From assembly GCF_000427685.1 (NCBI RefSeq), contig NZ_KE386573.1, positions 372,001-436,000 of the forward strand: a stretch of 64,000 nucleotides of DNA. Direction: 5' to 3'. The DNA comes from Haloplanus natans DSM 17983. GTDB taxonomy: Archaea > Halobacteriota > Halobacteria > Halobacteriales > Haloferacaceae. The position numbers and the translations under genes were made by a program. Below the pieces are notes generated by a model. That model worked only from the letters and a program-made list of their open reading frames with translations, did not search any database and had not been told where the DNA came from. The number at the start of each line of letters is the position of its first letter. Positions within the stretch are counted from its first letter, which is position 1. Of this stretch, positions 33,138 to 63,596 are shown in pieces.

Positions 33138-35186
33138 CTACATGTCCGCTCCCGGATCCCTGTCGATTACCTGCTGCTCGAACTCACTCGCCCGGATCCG
33201 CAGTGGGAACCACCCCTCTTCATCCACACCGAGTAAGGCCTCCGAGTACCCATCGTCCTCGTTGCCGGCCTTCGCAGTGCGCACCCAGTCCCGCTCGCGG
33301 GCGTTCAGGCCAAACCAGTCCGCGAGCGTCTCCATTTCCTCGCGAACCCGGTGGATCAGCGTCAACGAGCACAAATTGGCGATCGTCCGTGCTTCCGGGG
33401 TGAGCGTGAACTCTCCCCCAGTTTGTGTGATGAACTGTAGTGAGAGATCGTAATGCCGACTATGACGCACGGCCGTTTCGAGAAATTCGAGGGAACTCGT
33501 CTCGTTCAGGAGATAATGAGCCTCGTCGATGACAAACACGACACGCTTGTCGGTCTGTTTCGCGCGTTCGTACACCGACTTGAACAGCACCTGCATCATC
33601 AGACTCGTTCGAGAACGGCCGCGCGTCCCCTCTTCTTGCTGGAGATCGAGATATAGGCAGTTTGAATCGAAATCCAACGTCGTTGGCTCGGCGAGATTGG
33701 CGAGATCGCCATCGGGACGGAACGATGGCCGGAGATCGGTGAGCAACGACTGCGCGTCGGCTTGGACGCGGTCCTGCTCACCGGGTGTCGCATAGCCGAA
33801 CGTCGCCGGCTCCGCGAGGAGGTCTTCGAGGACGGCGATGACATCGCGAATCGTCGGCGACGGATTATCGTGTGTCGACGGGTCACGGTCGATGCCCTGC
33901 CGTGTATAGGCCTCCTGGATGGCCCGTCTGAGTGTCTGTTTGCGCTTGCCGAGCGGGTTCGCAGCGACGTGGTCGAAGAATGTCTCGAAGAAGCTGAGCG
34001 CCCATGTAATCTGCTCGGCCCACGGATCGAGATCCGATTGCTCACGCCGGATTGCCTCGGGAACGGCCCGCAATTCGAGTGGGTTGAGGCCTCGCGTACC
34101 GCCGACCGTAATTCGGTCGCCACCGAGCACGTCGTGGAGGCCAGCAAAGCCGCCCAACGGGTCGAGTAAGACCGTCATCGTGTCGGCATCGTACATCGCC
34201 CGTCGCACGAGATGGAGTTTCGTCGAGAACGATTTCCCGGCTCCGAGCTTGCCGATCACCATCATACAGTAGCCGGTCTCTCGAGCGAAGCGATCCAGAA
34301 TGAGCGGGCTCTCGTTGAGCGCGTACGTGCCGTATTCGATTCCCGGTTCCGCGACCGTCCCCGCGACGAAGGGGAACATCGCGCTGATGGCCCCCGCGAG
34401 CATCGGCGTCGTCGTTTCGAACTCCGTGTCCAATCGATTCACGCCGATCGGGCTCACGGAGACGAGGGCGTCCAACTGTGCCCACCGCGGCGTGATGGGG
34501 GTCAGGTTCGCCGGCGATTGTCGTGCCGCCCGCCGAACCGGCCCGGCGTCGATCCGGTCGGCCTCATTGTGCCGCGTCGTTAATAGCATCGCCACGTCGA
34601 ACGCCTGGACCGGTGTGTTCCGCAACACGTCGTACAGGTCGCGATGGTCGTTCAGATCCTTCTTGACGCCGCGTGCGCCTGCTCGCCGTCGGTCGGCCAA
34701 ATACTCGAAATCAGCTTCGAGATCCTCGATTCGGTTTTCGAGGCCGTCGAGTGTCGCCTGTGTCTCTCGTGGTTCGATGTGGAGACTGATGTCTGTCCGC
34801 CGCGTCTCCGGTGTCGCGTACAGCGTCTCGAAGAGCCCATCTCTCGGCATATCCGGGAATTCGCCGATCCAAAGTGTCTGTGTCCAGTCTGTCCCCGCCC
34901 GTACCGCACCGGGGCGACACGTCAGTGTCGATGGGCCAACGACACGTCGCTGGCGTGTCTGCCCGTCACTCGGTGGCCTGTCGGTCGGATCGTAGCTCAC
35001 TGATGCCGTTGTCGCCGTCGATTCTGCGCCAGTCGCCGCTTCCTGTCCCCTGTCCGAATGGTCCGCTCGCTCGGGGGTGGCTCCCCTCTCTCTACCGTCC
35101 GCACTGGCGCTCAGAGCTGTCTCCGCACCCGCCTCCGTGTCCGTGGTGTCTCCCCCACGCATCCAGCGACGGAGCCAATCGATCAT
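33138..35186 (-). CDS. virB4: VirB4-like conjugative transfer ATPase
   Basis: This 682-aa protein has Walker A GKLGAGKS at residues 312-319, Walker B VVFVIDEAH at 549-557, and a downstream QFITQTGGEF sensor motif. The C-terminal EVRIRASEFE-type end (PLRIRASEFEQQV) is typical of VirB4/TraC. The N-terminal 90 residues are polar and low-complexity. It powers pilus assembly and substrate transfer from the cytoplasmic face of a type IV secretion channel. The start overlaps the stop of the upstream gene by 4 nt (ATGA). Confidence 0.9.
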   Translation of the reverse strand: MIDWLRRWMRGGDTTDTEAGAETALSASADGRERGATPERADHSDRGQEAATGAESTATTASVSYDPTDRPPSDGQTRQRRVVGPSTLTCRPGAVRAGTDWTQTLWIGEFPDMPRDGLFETLYATPETRRTDISLHIEPRETQATLDGLENRIEDLEADFEYLADRRRAGARGVKKDLNDHRDLYDVLRNTPVQAFDVAMLLTTRHNEADRIDAGPVRRAARQSPANLTPITPRWAQLDALVSVSPIGVNRLDTEFETTTPMLAGAISAMFPFVAGTVAEPGIEYGTYALNESPLILDRFARETGYCMMVIGKLGAGKSFSTKLHLVRRAMYDADTMTVLLDPLGGFAGLHDVLGGDRITVGGTRGLNPLELRAVPEAIRREQSDLDPWAEQITWALSFFETFFDHVAANPLGKRKQTLRRAIQEAYTRQGIDRDPSTHDNPSPTIRDVIAVLEDLLAEPATFGYATPGEQDRVQADAQSLLTDLRPSFRPDGDLANLAEPTTLDFDSNCLYLDLQQEEGTRGRSRTSLMMQVLFKSVYERAKQTDKRVVFVIDEAHYLLNETSSLEFLETAVRHSRHYDLSLQFITQTGGEFTLTPEARTIANLCSLTLIHRVREEMETLADWFGLNARERDWVRTAKAGNEDDGYSEALLGVDEEGWFPLRIRASEFEQQVIDRDPGADM

Positions 35187-36228: not shown

Positions 36229-37650
36229 TTATTCGTCAGTGCGATCACTGGACTGGGTAGAGCGGTTATCAGTCGGCCCCGACTCCTGCTCGAACAGGAT
36301 CGGTTCGTTTTCGGTGCGGTCGAAGTCAGTCGGCTCGAAGCGATCCTGATCGAACTGAACGGGGGACTGGTCTTGACGGCCATCGGAGTGGGCGGGAGAG
36401 CCGCCGAGACGGCGCGTGGCACGCCGGAGTCGCCCACCCAAGCGATGGCTGCGAGACCGTGTCACACCGGAGCGGAGTTCGGTCTGCCCGTCGCGGCCGA
36501 TGGCTCGCTGCCCGCGGATGCCACGGAGCGCGTTTCGCCCCTCGTTGGCGAGTGCGACCCCCTGCTCGCGGCCATGTTCGAGTCGTGTCTGGAGACGCCG
36601 TCGGGATACCTGCCGACCCAAGCGATCACCGATGAACAACACGGCCCCGGCTTGCCAGAACAAGACAAACGGGACGACCAGTGCGACGAAGGGAATGACC
36701 ATCGCCGTGAGCCAGGCACCGATCCCGCCCATCGAGAGCTCCGCTGCATCGCCCAATAGTGCGGCCAGCCGCAGGAGCAGGGCCGTCGGTAGTGGCATGA
36801 CCAGAAACGGCACGTAGAAGCCGGCGAGCCGCTTCGCAACCCGCGAGAGGAGTCGGAACGGGCCAACACCAGGAATCCACGCGACGATGAGCAGTGGCAT
36901 CCCGAGTACGAATCCATAGAGCGCGAGCCGGCGCGTCAGATACACAAGCGCTAACAGCACAAACACGCCGAGATCGACGCTCAGGGAGACGAGGACGCCA
37001 AGCAGCCCGATCCCACCGAACGACGCCGTCTGGAACAGCGTGAGCGTGCTGAGATCAGGCAGCAGCAGCATCGCGAGGTGGTCCGCGAGCTGGAGAGACG
37101 CCGCGGCGAGCCACCACCACGAGAGCACGCCGAACAGCCCACTGATCGAGCGCCGCTTGAGATTCGCGCGGTGGTAGCTGCTGAACAACGTGCTGGTCGT
37201 CTCTAGCAGGATCACGATCCCGATCGCTAGCCCAAACAGCAGGAGCGCCAGTGGAATCATTGTCGTCCAGTAGAACCGATGGAGGGTTGGCCACGGGAGC
37301 GTCGTTGGCGTCTGGAATACTCGAGTCGGTGCGGGTGTCTCGACGATCAGCCGTAACAGACTGTCCCCATGTGTTTCGATGAGGTCCGTCACCGGCGCGA
37401 ACAGCGTCCGGAGAAACGTCTCAAGCGCACTGATCAAGGCATTCACGAGTGCGCCGATACTGATACCGCCATTACCGCTGCTACCCCCGTCGCCGCTTGT
37501 CTGTGCTGTTCCTTCGCCGACCAACCAGACGAGACTGATACCGACTCCACCGAGTAGGTGGCACAGTCGACTCCACCAGAGGCTGCGCCCCCATCCCTTA
37601 CTGGTGAGCGTCGGTCGTCTCTGCCGCGGTTTCGATTGTGACCCAGTCAT
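36229..37650 (-). CDS. VirB6/TrbL-like polytopic conjugation protein
   Basis: This 473-aa protein has about eight membrane segments between residues 25 and 340 (for example ALLLFGLAIGIVILLETTST, LLGVLVSLSVDLGVFVLLAL, AMVIPFVALVVPFVLFWQAG). An Arg-rich and then acidic cytoplasmic tail of about 130 residues follows. Size and topology fit VirB6/TrbL, the inner-membrane channel of type IV secretion. It lies 20 nt upstream of the PrgI-like gene in one operon. Confidence 0.75.
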   Translation of the reverse strand: MTGSQSKPRQRRPTLTSKGWGRSLWWSRLCHLLGGVGISLVWLVGEGTAQTSGDGGSSGNGGISIGALVNALISALETFLRTLFAPVTDLIETHGDSLLRLIVETPAPTRVFQTPTTLPWPTLHRFYWTTMIPLALLLFGLAIGIVILLETTSTLFSSYHRANLKRRSISGLFGVLSWWWLAAASLQLADHLAMLLLPDLSTLTLFQTASFGGIGLLGVLVSLSVDLGVFVLLALVYLTRRLALYGFVLGMPLLIVAWIPGVGPFRLLSRVAKRLAGFYVPFLVMPLPTALLLRLAALLGDAAELSMGGIGAWLTAMVIPFVALVVPFVLFWQAGAVLFIGDRLGRQVSRRRLQTRLEHGREQGVALANEGRNALRGIRGQRAIGRDGQTELRSGVTRSRSHRLGGRLRRATRRLGGSPAHSDGRQDQSPVQFDQDRFEPTDFDRTENEPILFEQESGPTDNRSTQSSDRTDE

Positions 37651-50808: not shown

Positions 50809-51648
50809 CTATTCCCACCACCGCCCGCGATCCGGGAACACGATCCGGCTCGTCGACGTGAGGGTCACGGACCACCGCCCGCGATACCAGCTCACCTTCG
50901 CCGCGCGGAATCGCACCCGCTCGCCCTCTCGCACCGTGGGGAGTTGGGATTTTTTGAACACGGTGAACTTCGTCCGCGCCGTGTCGTCACCGATCAGTCC
51001 GGCCTGTTGCACCGAGCCGTTCGTTTCGAACAACGTCTGCACCTCCCCTTCGATGCTCACTTCGCCCCGATCCACCTCGGGCACCGCCTCGATCGGGATC
51101 ACCCGCCCCGGCGCCAACTGCTCGGTTTCGGCCACCTGAATGACCGCCTCGAACAGCTCCCGCCCGGCCAGGACGTGTTCGGCCAACTGCCGCCCGATCG
51201 TCGCCCGCGACAGCCGCCGACTCGACCCCAGGCGCTCGCACAACCGCTGCGCCTGCTGGTTCACCGCCGCCAACTCGTCCTGGGACAGGAACTCCCGTGC
51301 ATCGACCAACTGCGTCTGTGCATGCCGCGTCCGGGCCTGTTCGCGCACGACCTGCCGCGTCCGGGCCTCCCGATCCGAGTCCTGCCGATCGTCGATCCGG
51401 TGTCGTGTCCGTTCGATCTCCCGCTCGCGCGCCTTCAGCTTCTCCTCGTCCGCGAGCGTCTGCCCGAACAGCCGGTCGTCGACCCACTCGTCGTCCGCGT
51501 GGTCGACCTTCGCTTGGGTGTCTTGCTCGACACTTGGCCGGAGCTCCGGGGTGTCGTCCCGCTCCGTGGCCGCCTCGCGCCGCTCGCGTGTTCGTTCGAT
51601 CTGTTCGTCGACCCAAACCTCTTCAGCGATAGCGTCCTTATCTGACAT
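50809..51648 (-). CDS. RPA-like OB-fold ssDNA-binding protein
   Basis: This 279-aa protein has about 110 N-terminal residues that are charged and helical (EKLKAREREIERTRHRIDDRQ). The middle part holds helix segments (LSRATIGRQLAEHVLAGREL), and the C-terminal 110 residues form an OB-fold: RVIPIEAVPEVDRGEVSIEG, DDTARTKFTVFKKSQLPT and GERVRFRAAKVSWYRGRWSV. It probably binds single-stranded DNA during transfer or replication. Its tail is duplicated at 49381-49497. Confidence 0.75.
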   Translation of the reverse strand: MSDKDAIAEEVWVDEQIERTRERREAATERDDTPELRPSVEQDTQAKVDHADDEWVDDRLFGQTLADEEKLKAREREIERTRHRIDDRQDSDREARTRQVVREQARTRHAQTQLVDAREFLSQDELAAVNQQAQRLCERLGSSRRLSRATIGRQLAEHVLAGRELFEAVIQVAETEQLAPGRVIPIEAVPEVDRGEVSIEGEVQTLFETNGSVQQAGLIGDDTARTKFTVFKKSQLPTVREGERVRFRAAKVSWYRGRWSVTLTSTSRIVFPDRGRWWE

Positions 51649-52443: not shown

Positions 52444-53496
52444 TCACGTATCTTTCGACCACTGCGCCCGGTCGCTCGCGAATGGGCTCTCCCTCCGATC
52501 CGGAGGCGTCCCGTTGCCCCCTCGGGAGATGTTGACCGCCCGGAACCCCTCGTTCGTCTCGATGACGTCGAACTCGAGGACCGTCTCCTCCTCGCAGTCC
52601 CCGCCTGGAACGTCGCTAACGTGGAAGAAGACGTCCGCGTCGTCAAGAGCCGGCGTCGATATGAAGCCGTACCCGTCGCTATCGTAGTGGACGACGGGGC
52701 CACTGGCGCCGCGAACAACGACTGTTCGTCCCGTCTCCGATCCCACACACGTGAACGCGTGGGCACGCAACGCGCTCCGGGAGTCGAACTGGGCACCACA
52801 GTCGGGACAGCGATGCGTGGAGGGTGACGGCGTCCCGTTCGGTGGCGCAGTGTTTGGGTCACTGCTGGCTCCCGATCCGAGGTTAGTGCTGGTGTCGCCG
52901 TCGGGACAGGCTTCGAGATGCTGCGTCAGCGCGTACTCGGCGATATAGGTCTGCTGACAGTGCGGGCACTCGAATCGCGCGTCACTGGGTCGGGCAGGAC
53001 AGTCGAGCCAGTGTGATCGCAACGAGTCTTCGCTTTCAAATCCCGTTTCGCAGAACTCGCAGGTAACCGCTGGCTCCGTATCGGTGGCCGCGTCGGCGTC
53101 CGTAGTGGCAGTCGCCGTGTGAGCGGTTGTTGTCCCCGACGGCTCGGCTGCCGAGTGCAATTCGGCTGCCGTGATTACCGTGCCAATCTGCTGTTTCCGT
53201 GCTGGTGCCAGCTCGTCCCCGATCTCGTGTAACAGCCACTGGAGCGACTTGACGGTTTGCGTGCTGACGGTTGCTGCAGGCGGGTCGTCTGCCGCTGCGA
53301 CGAGCGCCTGACTGCGCTGGGCCGCCGCTTCGGTTGTTGGACGGAGTTGCCCCGCCAGGATCCCTACGAGTACCAGGCCGTCTGGCACGGTCTCGTCGGG
53401 CAGTGTGCCGAGAACGCGTCGAAACAGCGGGCGTGCTCGAAAGGTACACTGTGCGCTGTCGGCGACAACCGTCGACTCTCTAACCCGAAACGACAT
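52444..53496 (-). CDS. three C2H2-like zinc fingers fused to a cold-shock domain
   Basis: In this 350-aa protein, residues 1-115 form an unrecognised helical domain. Then come three fingers of C-x2-C-x12-H-x3-C type at 146-166 (CEFCETGFESEDSLRSHWLDC), 177-197 and 230-250, and finally a cold-shock domain at about 265-324 with RNP1-like GYGFIS and RNP2-like VFFHVS. Both modules bind nucleic acid. The combination suggests an RNA- or DNA-binding regulator or chaperone of the element. I know of no named family with this architecture. Start ATG 53496 is family-unsupported but reasonable. Confidence 0.82.
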   Translation of the reverse strand: MSFRVRESTVVADSAQCTFRARPLFRRVLGTLPDETVPDGLVLVGILAGQLRPTTEAAAQRSQALVAAADDPPAATVSTQTVKSLQWLLHEIGDELAPARKQQIGTVITAAELHSAAEPSGTTTAHTATATTDADAATDTEPAVTCEFCETGFESEDSLRSHWLDCPARPSDARFECPHCQQTYIAEYALTQHLEACPDGDTSTNLGSGASSDPNTAPPNGTPSPSTHRCPDCGAQFDSRSALRAHAFTCVGSETGRTVVVRGASGPVVHYDSDGYGFISTPALDDADVFFHVSDVPGGDCEEETVLEFDVIETNEGFRAVNISRGGNGTPPDRRESPFASDRAQWSKDT

Positions 53497-53742: not shown

Positions 53743-53919
53743 TCACTTGTCGCTGCTACTGTGCTGCTCGACTTCCTGCAGGAAACTCACGTCGGTGAGG
53801 AGCATCGCTGCCACCTGAATCCGATGGGTGTCTGCCGTGGACAACTCCCCGGTCTCGATGTTGCGAAGGGTACTGAGCGCGCGGTGCACGTGATAGCCGG
53901 GCGTGTCGCGTGGGTCCAT
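53743..53919 (-). CDS. 58-aa helical protein, paralogue of 59383-59580
   Basis: MDPRDTPGYHVHRALSTLRN begins this ORF at 53919. The block VHRALSTLRNIETGELSTAD and RIQVAAMLLTDVS repeats in the ORF at 59383-59580 (VHRALSTLRNIETDELPQAD). It is a short amphipathic helix protein with no known family. Hairpin H5 lies only 5 nt before the start codon, so the structure would shield ribosome access. Confidence 0.62.
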   Translation of the reverse strand: MDPRDTPGYHVHRALSTLRNIETGELSTADTHRIQVAAMLLTDVSFLQEVEQHSSSDK

Positions 53920-53924
53920 GTGAA

Positions 53925-53947
53925 GCGCCTCCGCCCGTCGCAGGCGC
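53925..53947 (-). promoter_or_regulatory. 5' hairpin family, H5
   Basis: GCGCCTCCG-CCCGT-CGCAGGCGC, 9-bp arms with one mismatch, has the conserved ACGGG loop on the coding strand. It is preceded there by CTCGGTTTTGC and ends 5 nt from ATG 53919. Confidence 0.6.
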
Positions 53948-53986
53948 GCAAAACCGAGCCAGTCGGGCCGGTCGACCACCCGATGC

Positions 53987-54094
53987 GGGTGGGACTGAAA
54001 GGGGCCGGCGTCTCGGCGAACCCGGACGACGTAAGCACCGCAACGCAGTGAGGAGCGCAGCGAGTCCCGGGAGCCGAGACGCCGGGGGCTTTCG
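53987..54094. repeat. Candidate structured RNA element, copy R2
   Basis: GTGGGACTGAAAGGGGCC leads into stem arm GGCGTCTCGGC (54007-54017) paired exactly with GCCGAGACGCC (54073-54083). The interior contains GACGTAAGCACCGCAACG and GAGCGCAGCGAG, and GGGGGCTTTC follows. It lies in the upstream region of the exonuclease VII operon. Confidence 0.6.
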
Positions 54095-54183
54095 AGGTGC
54101 TCCCAGTGTCACCCGCGTCTCCCACCGCTACCCGCCCCGCCCGTCCCAGTCGTTTAATAGCCCCACCGCCTTCCCACGATCGT

Positions 54184-55401
54184 ATGGGCTCGGAGTCGGC
54201 CCCTGACGAGCAGGCGGTCCCGCGCCGCGCGGTGCTCCAGGACCGCCTCGGCACCGAGGCCGTCACGTTCGTCGACACACTCGGGGCGGAGATCGCAACC
54301 GTCGTCGAGGACGCGCCCGCCCTCACGTTCGACTATGTCGTCGGCGAGGTGTCGGATCACGGCGTCTCGTCGAACGGCCACGTCCACTTCGACCTCACGC
54401 ACGGGGACGCGACGATCCACTGCGTCTGCTTCGCGTCTCGGCGCTCGACCGTCGACGCCGACCTCGACGATGGCCAGCAGGTCGCCGTCACGGGTGACCT
54501 CTCCTACTACGAGGCGAACGGGAGCCTCTCGGTGATCGTCGCCGACGTCGTCACGGTCGGGACGGGGCAGTATCAGCAAACGTACGAGCGAAACCGTGCG
54601 ATCCTCGCCGCGGATGGCCTCCTCGATCCCGAGACCAAGCGGGCACTCCCCACGTCTCCCGACCGGATCGGCCTCGTGACCAGCGCCGAGAGCGATGCAC
54701 GGACGGACGCGGTCACCAGCCTCCGCAATCGCCATCGCGGCGTCGACATCGTCGTTCACGACACGCCGGTCCAGGGCGACGACGCCATGGCCGCGCTCAT
54801 GGGCGCCGTGAGCGAACTGGACGATGCCGCTCGTGTCGACGTGATCGTCGTGACCCGCGGCGGTGGTGCGGATGTCGATCTCCGGGTGTTCAACGAGACG
54901 CCGCTGTGTCGGGTCCTCCACAACACGTCGACACCCGTCGTCGTCGCCGTCGGCCACGACGCGGATCGCACCCTCGCTGGTGCGGTGGCCGACGAGCGCG
55001 TGATGACGCCGACTGACGTGGGTCGCATCGTTCCCGACGTGACGGCCCTCGCCGAGGAGTGCGAGACGCTTCGACACCGCCTCGACACGGCGTATGCGGG
55101 TGTGGTTGAGGACCGCCTCGGGACGCTGGCCGGGCGGCTGGATCGGGCGTATCGCGACCACACTGCGACGCGACTGATGACGCTCCGGACCGACCTCGAT
55201 CACGCCTACGACACGCGGGTGACCCAGCATCTGACGGCGCTCGACGAACGCCTGGCGACGGCGTGGACGGGGTTCGAGCGGCAGCGCGCGCATCGCCAGC
55301 AAACTGACCGCTATCGCCGCCAGCGCCGCCGCCTCGTCGCGGCCCTCGTGGTACTGGGCCTCGTCGTCGTGATACTCGCGCTGGTCCTGATCCTCTCATG
55401 A
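54184..55401 (+). CDS. xseA: exodeoxyribonuclease VII large subunit, C-terminal transmembrane tail
   Basis: This 405-aa protein starts at ATG 54184, 37 nt after GTTTAATAG. The N-terminal OB-fold binds ssDNA (FDYVVGEVSDHGVSSNGHVH...). The catalytic core shows TSPDRIGLVTSAESDARTD, VVTRGGGADVDLRVFNE and VGHDADRTL. A coiled-coil follows, and the last about 20 residues (LVAALVVLGLVVVILALVLI) are a hydrophobic helix not normal for XseA. This would anchor the nuclease to the membrane. It overlaps xseB by 4 nt. Confidence 0.88.
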   Translation: MGSESAPDEQAVPRRAVLQDRLGTEAVTFVDTLGAEIATVVEDAPALTFDYVVGEVSDHGVSSNGHVHFDLTHGDATIHCVCFASRRSTVDADLDDGQQVAVTGDLSYYEANGSLSVIVADVVTVGTGQYQQTYERNRAILAADGLLDPETKRALPTSPDRIGLVTSAESDARTDAVTSLRNRHRGVDIVVHDTPVQGDDAMAALMGAVSELDDAARVDVIVVTRGGGADVDLRVFNETPLCRVLHNTSTPVVVAVGHDADRTLAGAVADERVMTPTDVGRIVPDVTALAEECETLRHRLDTAYAGVVEDRLGTLAGRLDRAYRDHTATRLMTLRTDLDHAYDTRVTQHLTALDERLATAWTGFERQRAHRQQTDRYRRQRRRLVAALVVLGLVVVILALVLILS

Positions 55402-55583
55402 CCGACGACATCGACGCCAAGATCGACCGCCTCGAAACGATCATCGAGCAACTGGAACAGGGGGAGGTCTCCCTCGACCGCGCCACCGCCCTGCACACCG
55501 AGGGCCGTGAGATCCTCGCCGAACTCGACGCGGAGGTAGCACTCGACGAGGACACGGTGGACGAGGTGACCGAGCAGTCCTGA
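55398..55583 (+). CDS. xseB: exodeoxyribonuclease VII small subunit
   Basis: This 61-aa helical protein reads MTDDIDAKIDRLETIIEQLE, QGEVSLDRATALHTEGREIL: the XseB coiled-coil pattern. ATG overlaps the xseA stop (ATGA). Together they form exonuclease VII, which degrades single-stranded DNA and could trim transfer intermediates. Confidence 0.87.
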   Translation: MTDDIDAKIDRLETIIEQLEQGEVSLDRATALHTEGREILAELDAEVALDEDTVDEVTEQS

Positions 55584-59382: not shown

Positions 59383-59580
59383 TCAGCGGTCGTCAGGATC
59401 GAGCCGTGTCGTCTCGACACCGCCTCTGCCGACTGCAGCGCGAATACTCACGGCCGCGAGGAGCACCGTTGCCACCGCGATACGACGGGTGTCCGCCTGT
59501 GGGAGTTCGTCGGTTTCGATGTTGCGGAGCGTACTGAGCGCACGATGTACCTGCTGTCCAGAACTGTCTTGTAGCGCCAT
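59383..59580 (-). CDS. 65-aa helical protein, paralogue of 53743-53919
   Basis: It starts at ATG 59580 (MALQDSSGQQVHRALSTLRN). It shares the 30-residue core VHRALSTLRNIETDELPQAD, RRIAVATVLLAAVS with the ORF at 53743-53919. Hairpin H6 ends 5 nt before the start, as H5 does there. Its function is unknown; two copies with the same 5' structure in one element suggest a maintained role. Confidence 0.62.
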   Translation of the reverse strand: MALQDSSGQQVHRALSTLRNIETDELPQADTRRIAVATVLLAAVSIRAAVGRGGVETTRLDPDDR

Positions 59581-59610: not shown

Positions 59611-59930
59611 AAAAAACAGGCATGCAGACGGTCCCTACCGAACGTGCGGCGACACGAGCCCCAATTCAGTGGCCATCGCGGGTCGTGACCGCTTCGATGG
59701 TCCGAGCCGACCACCGATTGCGGTCGTGGGTTGGGTGTCGGGCCTGAATTCGACCGTAGGCTATCGAACCCCCCAGTTACAGCCTGCTGGTGACCCCCCT
59801 CGTCACTCTCTGGAAGCGTGGCAGTGTCTGGCAACCCCACCCGTTCTTGGCTGCGCAGTCGTTCCATTTGGGCCGGGGATTTAAGCTGATTCTCTGTAAT
59901 CGTCGGATAGACGCTGAGGCGACGCCGACG

Positions 59931-62900
59931 ATGGCACGCGATGAGTCAGCCGCCGACACGGCCGCTCGCTCGTTCCTCCGGATCACACCGGCGACTGAGC
60001 CACTCGATCCGGCGACCGTCCACACGCAGTGTCGCCGACTCCACGCCCTCGCCGACTTCCAGTCCGGTCTCCAGTCCCTCGTCGGCCGGTCTGCCCCACC
60101 CACAATCGAGCTCTGTCTCCACAGTGACGGGACACGGATCGAGTATCTCGTCGGCTGCACCGGCGACGATGCCGCACCGATCCTCGACACGCTTGATCGG
60201 CTCTGTCACACGCTCTTCCCGGACAGCTACGCCATCGAGCGTATTGAACGCCCCCCTGATGCGCTCGTCCCGACGACGGCTGCCGCCGAGACGGCGCCGA
60301 CCGCCCTCGTCTGCGAGGGCGTCCCCGACCGCCGCCGGGACTGGCAGACCCGCCTCACCCCCTTCGAGCAGTTCCAGACCGACGACCACGCCCGTATCCC
60401 GCTCGCCGCCGTCGCCGAGACGATGGCCGCCACGGATGTCCCCATGGTCTATCAGACCCTCATCCAGCCGTATCCGGACTGGACCGCCGCGGCCGACGAC
60501 CGTCGCGCTGCTATCGAAGCCGGCCAGGACACGCTCGGGGGGCAGCTGCTCACGTCGCTCACGGGGCTTGATGCGCCGACCGCCGATGCCGACCCGACGC
60601 GTGAGGGGACGGGCGCGGCCGATGCGCTCCCCGCCTCGGATCGCAGCCGATTGGAATCGATCGACGCCAAGGACGCCACGCGGTCGTTCGTGGTGAACAC
60701 GCGGGTCGTCGCCGCCACGAACGATGGTGACGGCTCGGCTGATCCACTCGCCGAACTCACCGCTGCCTTCAGCGAGTGTGCGGGGCCACATTATGAGCTC
60801 GCGATGCGCCGCCTCGACGGTGACGCCGCCGCTGCGGTGGCTACCGCGATCCGCGAGCGAACCGTCGACCCCCCGACCTACGAGTCCATGCGTGCCCGGC
60901 TCCCCGGCACGACCGTCCGCAGTCGCGGCCTCATCGTCGACGCCGCGGCGCTCGGGTGTTTCTGGCTCCTCGACGGCACCGCACTCCCCACGGCGAGTCG
61001 CCGGGCGCTCGACGTGATCCCCGAGGATCGCACCCCGCAGTCTCGCCCACCCGACCCGATCCTCGACACCTACGACGGCCCCGGGCTCACACTCGGTCGG
61101 CCGCGGACACAAGATGGGACAGCCAGTGACGATTCCATTGCTCTCCCGCCCTCCTTGCAACGCCTGCACACGGCGTGGTTCGGTCGGACTGGCTCAGGGA
61201 AATCCACCTCGCTCGTGCGGGCGATTCGGGACAATCACGCCGCGACCGATGGCGCCGACATCCTGCTTGATCCCAAGGGTGACGGCATGGCGACCGACTA
61301 CCTCCGCGCGCACTACGCCCAGTACGGGCACCTCGACAACGTCCTGTATTTCGACTGCAGCGAGGTCCTCCCCGCCATCTCGTTTTTCGACGTGCGGGCC
61401 GATGTTGCGGCTGGCGTGCCCCGCGCCACGGCCGTCGATGATGTCGTCGACCACTACATCGAAATTCTGACGGCGCTGATGGGCCGCGACCGCTTCGAAC
61501 AGGCCGTCCGTGCGCCCGATATCATCCGGTTTCTCGTCCGTGCGAAATTCGATCCCGTCCACGGCGACGATGCCTTCTCCCATCGCGACCTCCACGGGGC
61601 GGCCCGACGAATGCACGAACGGCAGTCGGCGCCCTCCGTCTCGAATCCGGATCTCGAACGCATGCTCGGCGGCGTCGTTGCCAACCGTGCCCGGACGTTC
61701 GACGAGGTGATGCAGGGTGTTGCGAACCGACTGGAGAAGGTGCCGACCGACCGTCGGCTCGCTCGCCTATTCAATCACGTTCCCGACGCGGTCACGAGCG
61801 ATACTGACGCGGTGGCGACGACGAGTGCGGCCGCCTCGGCGACGACAACCACCACCGAGCCAACCCTAGGCTTCGATGACGAGTCACCGACCGCCACCGA
61901 ACAGCAGACTGCGGACCCACGTGCGACGTCACCCACGCCTGGCACCGCGCACTTCGATCTCGGCCAGTATCTCGATGCGAATGTCGTGGTCATCCTCGAT
62001 CTGGGTGGCCTCCGCATCGAGACGCGCCGCGCGATCACGCTTGTTCTCCTGTCGAACCTCTGGACAGCCCTGCGACGGCGCCGCCAGCGCCGCGAGGCGG
62101 ATCGCCTCCCGCTCGTGAACTGTTACATCGAGGAGGCCGCCAGTATCGCGGCGACGGATCTCATGACCACCCTGCTTGCCCAGGCCCGCAGTTTCGACTG
62201 TGCGCTCACCCTCGCCATGCAGTTCCCCAACCAACTCGACCAACTCGATCCGACGGGGGCGGCGACGGACGAAGTCCTGAACAATATCGGGACGATCCTG
62301 ACTGGGCCGATCGGCGTCGATCAGGGGCTCGCCGAGCGTATGGCGACCGACGAGCTGCCGGCCCAGGACGTGGCGAATCGCCTTCGGGGTCTGCAGCGTG
62401 GCCAGTGGCTTGCGAGTCTTCCCGCGGCGTTCGATGCACCGGCGCCCGCTCCGTTCCAACTGCAGTCCGCGCGGCCGCCTGCGGGGCATCCGGCTGCCGA
62501 GGCGTCCGTCAAGCCGGCCGTCACCGACGTCATTGCCGACGTGGAACGCCGGACGCGTGAGCGGGCGGGCGTCACACTGGTTGACCCCGAACCCGCCGCC
62601 GACGCTGACGGTGACGCGGCGACCGATCCCGACCGCCGTGTCGACTCCGCCCTCCCCCACACGATGCGGCTCCCGTCGTGGGTGGAGTACGACGGCGACA
62701 TCCACGCCCTCCGCTGTGAGACCTGTGACAATCGCTACGATCCCACGAGCGAGGGGATGGCGCGAGCGATTGCCTGCTGTCACGATCCCGATGCCGTCAA
62801 CCGTGACGATATCCCTATCTGCGAGTTGAATCTGAAGCTCACGCCCGAGGAGCGCGCGGACAGCGAGTGGTCCGACGCGCAGCTCATGTTCCTGCAGGCG

Positions 62901-63596
62901 GTGTACAACGCGCAGCAGTTACGGTACGAGCCCCCAGGCTACGATCTGCTGCGTGACTCGATGCTTCGCTTGCAGGAGTACGTCGGTATCGATCGCGACG
63001 CAGTCGACGAACTCCTCGAGACGGACCTCCTGCGCCACGATACGGATCACCCGCACCGCCTCTATTCGGTCTCGCCCGCGGGCCGCGACGTCATCGGCGA
63101 GCACTACCGGCAGGGCGTCGATTACGGCCATGGGCAGGGCGATTTGGAGGAGTCGAGTCAGCACGTCTTCGCTGTCGAGGTGGGGCGGCGCTGGCTCGAA
63201 CAGGCGTACGTGGACGATCCCGAGTCACCCGTCGTCGAGGTGGTGCCGTACTACGATCTGGATGGGAATCACCGCCTCGATATTGCGGGGGTCGACGAGG
63301 CGGGCGAGATTCGGGTGGCTGTGGAGGCCGAGCGCGTGAATCACGATCTTCGGGAGGCGGTGCCGGCCGATTACGATAAGATCGCGGCCTGTGATGTGGA
63401 TGCGGCGATCTGGATCGTGATGACCCAGCGTGCGGGCCACGACGTGCTCCAGGCGCTCAACGACCCGCCGGATGGCGAGCCGCGTGTCGCGAAGACGTAC
63501 GCGGAGACGACGCCGCCCCAGCAGTTCCGCATCGACACGCCGGGGGTGACGGCGATGTATCCGGCTGAGTGGTTGCGGGAGCGACTCGGGGAGTGA
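59931..63596 (+). CDS. virD4: VirD4/TraG-like coupling ATPase, large form
   Basis: This 1221-aa protein starts at ATG 59931, with GATTTAAGC (59878-59886) as a possible promoter element. An N-terminal region of about 400 residues is followed by Walker A GRTGSGKST (418-426), the post-Walker DPKGDGMATDYL, Walker B VVVILDLGGLRIE, and a late YIEEAASIAATDLMTTLLAQ sensor-like motif. This is the ssDNA-transfer motor that brings DNA to the secretion channel. The C-terminal 250 residues include a winged-helix-like part (YSVSPAGRDVIGEHYR) and a segment with DIAG...VAVEAERVNHD resembling PD-(D/E)xK nucleases. Confidence 0.88.
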   Translation: MARDESAADTAARSFLRITPATEPLDPATVHTQCRRLHALADFQSGLQSLVGRSAPPTIELCLHSDGTRIEYLVGCTGDDAAPILDTLDRLCHTLFPDSYAIERIERPPDALVPTTAAAETAPTALVCEGVPDRRRDWQTRLTPFEQFQTDDHARIPLAAVAETMAATDVPMVYQTLIQPYPDWTAAADDRRAAIEAGQDTLGGQLLTSLTGLDAPTADADPTREGTGAADALPASDRSRLESIDAKDATRSFVVNTRVVAATNDGDGSADPLAELTAAFSECAGPHYELAMRRLDGDAAAAVATAIRERTVDPPTYESMRARLPGTTVRSRGLIVDAAALGCFWLLDGTALPTASRRALDVIPEDRTPQSRPPDPILDTYDGPGLTLGRPRTQDGTASDDSIALPPSLQRLHTAWFGRTGSGKSTSLVRAIRDNHAATDGADILLDPKGDGMATDYLRAHYAQYGHLDNVLYFDCSEVLPAISFFDVRADVAAGVPRATAVDDVVDHYIEILTALMGRDRFEQAVRAPDIIRFLVRAKFDPVHGDDAFSHRDLHGAARRMHERQSAPSVSNPDLERMLGGVVANRARTFDEVMQGVANRLEKVPTDRRLARLFNHVPDAVTSDTDAVATTSAAASATTTTTEPTLGFDDESPTATEQQTADPRATSPTPGTAHFDLGQYLDANVVVILDLGGLRIETRRAITLVLLSNLWTALRRRRQRREADRLPLVNCYIEEAASIAATDLMTTLLAQARSFDCALTLAMQFPNQLDQLDPTGAATDEVLNNIGTILTGPIGVDQGLAERMATDELPAQDVANRLRGLQRGQWLASLPAAFDAPAPAPFQLQSARPPAGHPAAEASVKPAVTDVIADVERRTRERAGVTLVDPEPAADADGDAATDPDRRVDSALPHTMRLPSWVEYDGDIHALRCETCDNRYDPTSEGMARAIACCHDPDAVNRDDIPICELNLKLTPEERADSEWSDAQLMFLQAVYNAQQLRYEPPGYDLLRDSMLRLQEYVGIDRDAVDELLETDLLRHDTDHPHRLYSVSPAGRDVIGEHYRQGVDYGHGQGDLEESSQHVFAVEVGRRWLEQAYVDDPESPVVEVVPYYDLDGNHRLDIAGVDEAGEIRVAVEAERVNHDLREAVPADYDKIAACDVDAAIWIVMTQRAGHDVLQALNDPPDGEPRVAKTYAETTPPQQFRIDTPGVTAMYPAEWLRERLGE

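Follow-up and report, generated by a model that had tools for sequence, protein, structure and literature searches.

The window, a 64,000-nucleotide stretch of the genome of Haloplanus natans DSM 17983, contains at positions 52444-53496 an open reading frame of 350 aa. It lies on the minus strand; an earlier reading of this DNA from its sequence (the initial annotation) had given the coordinates exactly but had missed the strand. On the plus strand, this interval contains three stops, and the start Met of the ORF aligns with that of its relatives. The parts of the gene are the following.

52444-53496, minus strand: whole gene (350 aa), N-domain, three C2HC fingers, cold-shock domain and C-terminal tail
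53152-53496, minus strand: N-terminal domain (aa 1-115), uncharacterised haloarchaeal family (profile searches)
52999-53061, minus strand: zinc finger 1 (aa 146-166), C-x2-C-x12-H-x3-C (Pfam zf-C2H2 families and ligands)
52906-52968, minus strand: zinc finger 2 (aa 177-197), C2HC here and C2H2 in relatives (Pfam and alignment)
52747-52809, minus strand: zinc finger 3 (aa 230-250), C2HC here and C2H2 in relatives (Pfam and alignment)
52519-52701, minus strand: cold-shock domain (CSD; aa 266-326) with GYGFIS and VFFHVS (PF00313, 30.4 bits, cut-off 27)
52447-52491, minus strand: C-terminal tail (aa 336-350), ESPFASDRAQWSKDT; DPFASTRTRWGGN in relatives (alignment)

The other genes of the window that bear on its interpretation are listed below.

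33138-35186, minus strand: VirB4/TraG-like conjugation ATPase
36229-37650, minus strand: TrbL/VirB6-like conjugation protein
50809-51648, minus strand: Ssb-like OB-fold gene (19.2 bits, below the cut-off of 24; 77% identity to its counterpart L090 in the G420 element)
54097-55401, plus strand: exonuclease VII large subunit (XseA), divergent from the finger-CSD gene
55398-55583, plus strand: small ORF overlapping the XseA gene by 4 bp, likely XseB from its position and size
59790-63596, plus strand: HerA/TrwB-type coupling ATPase (weak Pfam matches; homologue 75% identical in the G420 element)

The proposed location on a conjugative element is supported by the VirB4/TraG-like ATPase and the TrbL/VirB6-like protein in the window and by the occurrence of a related element in one sister species (G420). 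The finger-CSD gene sits between the genes for the OB-fold protein and the coupling ATPase, both of which recur in the G420 element in the same relative orientation. Because the G420 element has no copy of the finger-CSD gene, and because no DNA match to it was found among the matches listed for the 11 remaining genomes of the genus, the gene is classed as cargo of the conjugative element.

Several repeats were observed in this part of the window. Positions 53966-54112 hold a dispersed, MITE-like repeat of ~147 bp that contains an inverted repeat of 21 nt (53997-54017 and 54073-54093) and occurs at several other sites in the same genome and in sister species, sometimes as opposed pairs. Two small, similar ORFs at 53743-53979 and 59383-59580 (both minus strand) have in common HRALSTLRNIET-EL--ADT-RI--A--LL, and their flanking DNA is also repeated; the ORF at 53743-53979 had no Pfam match. 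The OB-fold gene (50809-51648, minus strand) has many partial DNA matches on other contigs of the genome and in sister species.

Pfam searches with the 350-aa protein yielded zf-C2H2 at 41 bits (cut-off 25.2) and zf-C2H2_4 at 37.6 bits in three stretches (cut-off 27), and the fingers conform to the pattern C-x2-C-x12-H-x3-5-(H/C) of PF00096/PF13894. The ligands are C146/C149/H162/C166 in finger 1, C177/C180/H193/C197 in finger 2 and C230/C233/H246/C250 in finger 3. The three C2H2-like fingers described previously are thus supported by scores above cut-off, but their nature had escaped notice: all three are of the C2HC type, C-x2-C-x12-H-x3-C. The ligands of finger 1 are invariant among the aligned finger-bearing relatives, whose fourth ligand in fingers 2 and 3 is His; the His/Cys swap at this position preserves the predicted zinc site. 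In the full-length AlphaFold model, the fingers adopt a beta-beta-alpha fold, with pLDDT values of ~72-85 for fingers 1 and 2 and ~50-70 for finger 3.

One alternative reading is an element-encoded regulator, acting at the transcriptional or post-transcriptional level, in which the fingers would read DNA and the CSD would have RNA or melted promoter DNA as its target, so as to control genes of the element or the host. Sequence-preferring DNA binding is known for archaeal C2H2/C2HC fingers, as in AFV1p06 (PMC3541406), and the cargo position between the OB-fold and coupling ATPase genes is compatible with such a role. The fingers are, however, separated by 10 and 32 residues and do not form a tandem TGEKP array, members of the same family lack either the fingers or the CSD (see below), and neither a conserved neighbour nor an operator site was found. 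We consider a regulator unlikely.

The CSD scored 30.4 bits against PF00313 (Pfam cut-off 27) over aa 271-324, and those of the relatives scored 36-46 bits, so that the profile search supports the domain first recognised from GYGFIS and VFFHVS. These RNP1-like and RNP2-like motifs correspond to aa 275-280 and 289-294. The conserved RNP1/RNP2 residues of PF00313 are present, and none of G277, F278, I279, F290, F291 and H292 varies among the eight aligned CSD-bearing proteins; in the alignments, the position of CspB Trp-8 is occupied by His or Asp in the fused CSDs. Five strands were predicted in this region of the full-length AlphaFold model, at very low confidence. Stand-alone haloarchaeal CspA-type proteins have CSDs with 44-54% identity and likewise carry GYGFI and DVFFH, but they consist of ~64 aa with no other domains. 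Because the fused CSDs group apart from the stand-alone Csps in a tree (98/96 support, from 64 columns only and with long branches), they do not look like recent captures. On the basis of these domains, the prediction that the 350-aa protein binds DNA or RNA is well supported.

The N-terminal domain, which had been called unrecognised, indeed matched nothing in Pfam, NCBIfam, PHROGs or PADLOC. A profile search against PDB sequences returned nothing beyond weak matches to designed helical repeat proteins, which we took to reflect helical composition. AlphaFold predictions were made from single sequences and for the window protein only. The N-domain alone was modelled with a pLDDT of 76, a result that was not reproduced in the full-length run, whose model was poor overall (pLDDT 47). 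A fold search of PDB and BFVD with the one-sequence N-domain model, which is not a robust query, gave nothing significant.

Searches of 392 genomes of the order revealed three full-length relatives with 37-38% identity; among the other listed matches, those read out turned out to be 64-aa cold-shock proteins that stand alone, and many apparent finger-CSD matches proved to be such proteins read across stop codons. A profile built from the N-terminal 115 residues found more relatives and places the N-domain family sporadically in 11-12 of the 392 genomes. The complete architecture of N-domain, three fingers, CSD and PFAS tail is present in seven of 170 genomes of the GTDB family, confined to two genera (the window genome, G068, G120, G231, G439, G444 and G448). 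Other members are built differently. The protein of G391 (L052:5639-6514) joins the N-domain to a CSD of 36.2 bits and has no fingers, and those of G117 (L062) and G150 (L063) join it to two fingers and a different tail and have no CSD. In G269 (L067) and G023 (L064) only a tail or end region follows the N-domain, which stands alone in G091 (L065) and in G131, where it is split by an apparent insertion sequence; G459 (L053) holds a fragment with one finger. A match in G090 is a probable false positive from another reading frame of an Orc1/Cdc6-like gene, and a single Verrucomicrobia match in a scan of public genomes was unrelated. Plasmid and phage records contained no N-domain match, and no viral relative was confirmed in IMG/VR.

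From this set of architectures, the N-domain is deduced to be the constant part, and the predicted nucleic-acid-binding part to be swapped among three fingers plus CSD, CSD alone, two fingers and none. This arrangement of a constant N-domain and tail with exchanged fingers and CSD had gone unseen in the initial annotation. By the same comparisons, the N-domain defines an undescribed haloarchaeal family. The ratio dN/dS between close relatives is 0.21-0.24, and the linker from the N-domain to the fingers is relaxed (dN 0.23 at dS 0.26, G068 versus G120). The protein is real and under purifying selection.

The C-terminal tail reads (D/E)PFASTRTRWGGN in the group with fingers and CSD (ESPFASDRAQWSKDT in the window protein) and GSERISGRNPFADPDKLKDTGVHQGGN in the group with N-domain and fingers; from their PFA core we read the two tails as probably homologous. 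The second tail motif recurs on an unrelated 174-aa protein of G115 (L096:8812-9336, plus strand; tail GDERITGKNPFADPERLKETGIHQGGN), whose gene follows a PDDEXK gene and is directly followed by a UvrD-helicase plus PDDEXK gene; the motif is also found in a few other genomes. That unrelated proteins have one tail in common suggests a docking peptide.

At seven of 15 loci, a tyrosine integrase is encoded no more than 6 kb from the gene, whereas integrase counts would lead one to expect ~0.5 such loci (p ~2e-7). When related islands were collapsed, an integrase was nearby in 5-6 against 0.4 expected (p ~3e-5 or lower). The genes of the N-domain family thus ride on mobile islands. Neighbours of the relatives include a PsyrT-type RecQ helicase (830 bits), a NERD-UvrD helicase, an HKD+Snf2-type helicase, an Mrr-type nuclease and a GIY-YIG protein; several loci hold restriction or defence-type genes, although PADLOC matches to single genes do not amount to systems. 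The finger-CSD gene follows a PD-(D/E)XK-like gene and a gene for a 182-aa protein in four islands that are closely related. Neither of these two preceding genes had a Pfam or PADLOC family at cut-off, the Pfam support for the nuclease being a sub-threshold AlwI match. No partner gene is conserved across the loci of the family. The PD-(D/E)XK-like gene overlaps the 182-aa gene by 4 bp at L037:8550-10171 and L038:9059-10572 (plus strand). A row of genes named by inspection as Mre11/Rad50/NurA/HerA-like (L051:276-8148, plus strand) immediately adjoins the G448 copy.

The integrases near seven of the 15 loci, the Mre11/Rad50/NurA/HerA-like row beside the G448 copy, and the ExoVII and OB-fold genes adjoining the window gene would all suit an accessory factor that coats or remodels single strands during integration, conjugation or repair of element DNA. 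Nearness to an integrase may, however, only mean that the cargo lies at an element end, the related G420 element does without the gene, and no integrase was found within the window; such a factor appears quite improbable to us. Residence on the element and nucleic-acid-binding domains would also fit an anti-restriction or anti-defence factor shielding incoming DNA, a role that we judge very unlikely: the protein resembles no known anti-restriction family, and its relatives lie in islands that have restriction and defence-type genes of their own, which suits a host-protective function at least as well.

The best reading, to which we give about an even chance, is that of a nucleic-acid-binding adaptor borne on mobile islands. 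The CSD would grip single-stranded RNA or ssDNA through the RNP1/RNP2 aromatics, the three fingers on their long flexible linkers would contact a second nucleic-acid segment or a protein, and the N-domain and short conserved tail might dock the protein to, or oligomerise it with, partner machinery. As for the role, we favour one in which the protein would sense or handle nucleic acid of foreign or element origin, in a setting of defence or element protection. This reading is favoured because the CSD and C2H2 matches exceed their cut-offs, the zinc ligands and most of the RNP1/RNP2 core are invariant in the CSD-bearing relatives, dN/dS is low and modules are swapped around a constant N-domain at mobile locations, and because integrases, helicases and a nuclease are near and the tail also occurs beside a UvrD plus PDDEXK gene. 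It is weakened by the absence of a partner gene conserved across loci and by the N-domain model not being reproduced; moreover, defence genes gather in islands anyway. We rank a defence or element-protection adaptor first, followed by a regulator, a DNA-processing accessory and an anti-restriction factor. A more novel scheme, which we regard as rather unlikely, is that the constant N-domain and docking peptide carry exchangeable nucleic-acid-recognition modules and that the protein, as a sensor or a specificity subunit, directs nucleases and helicases of the host or the island to RNA or DNA of foreign origin. Domain evidence and synteny agree with the initial annotation in making this a nucleic-acid-binding protein of the element; the roles that it offered, as a regulator, an anti-restriction factor or an RNA chaperone, are candidates.

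The combination of fingers, CSD and an unclassified N-domain was not found in a non-exhaustive search of the open-access literature, and no described homologue of known function emerged. The fusion of three fingers to a CSD is unusual. More important than the fusion is the N-domain family, with its constant scaffold, swapped binding modules and common tail: given its absence from Pfam, NCBIfam, PHROGs and PADLOC and its location in mobile, defence-rich islands, it offers a candidate, open to experimental test, for a new haloarchaeal component of nucleic-acid sensing or element maintenance.

The closest known systems each differ from the window protein. In Lin28, CCHC knuckles lie C-terminal to the CSD, whereas in the window protein three C2H2/C2HC fingers precede it, following an unrelated N-domain. 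Lin28 is eukaryotic and combines a CSD and zinc-binding modules in one RNA-binding protein (PMC3759924), and we draw an analogy, not a claim of homology. The retron Se72-type effector is a CSD protein whose annotation links it to a defence system; the window protein reached 21 bits against the cut-off of 82 of this equivalog (NCBIfam NF038236), and no reverse transcriptase was present among the scanned neighbours. Classical-type zinc fingers are scarce in archaea, where one or two fingers are the norm (PMC3541406). The archaeal-virus protein AFV1p06 has, like the window protein, a classical-type finger with Cys as the fourth ligand, but it belongs to a viral family of short, single-finger proteins (PMC3541406) with a family-specific extension, as opposed to three fingers in a 350-aa multidomain protein. 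Proteins with a CSD and zinc-binding modules and C2HC fingers of archaeal viruses are thus already known, and more interest attaches to the undescribed N-domain family.
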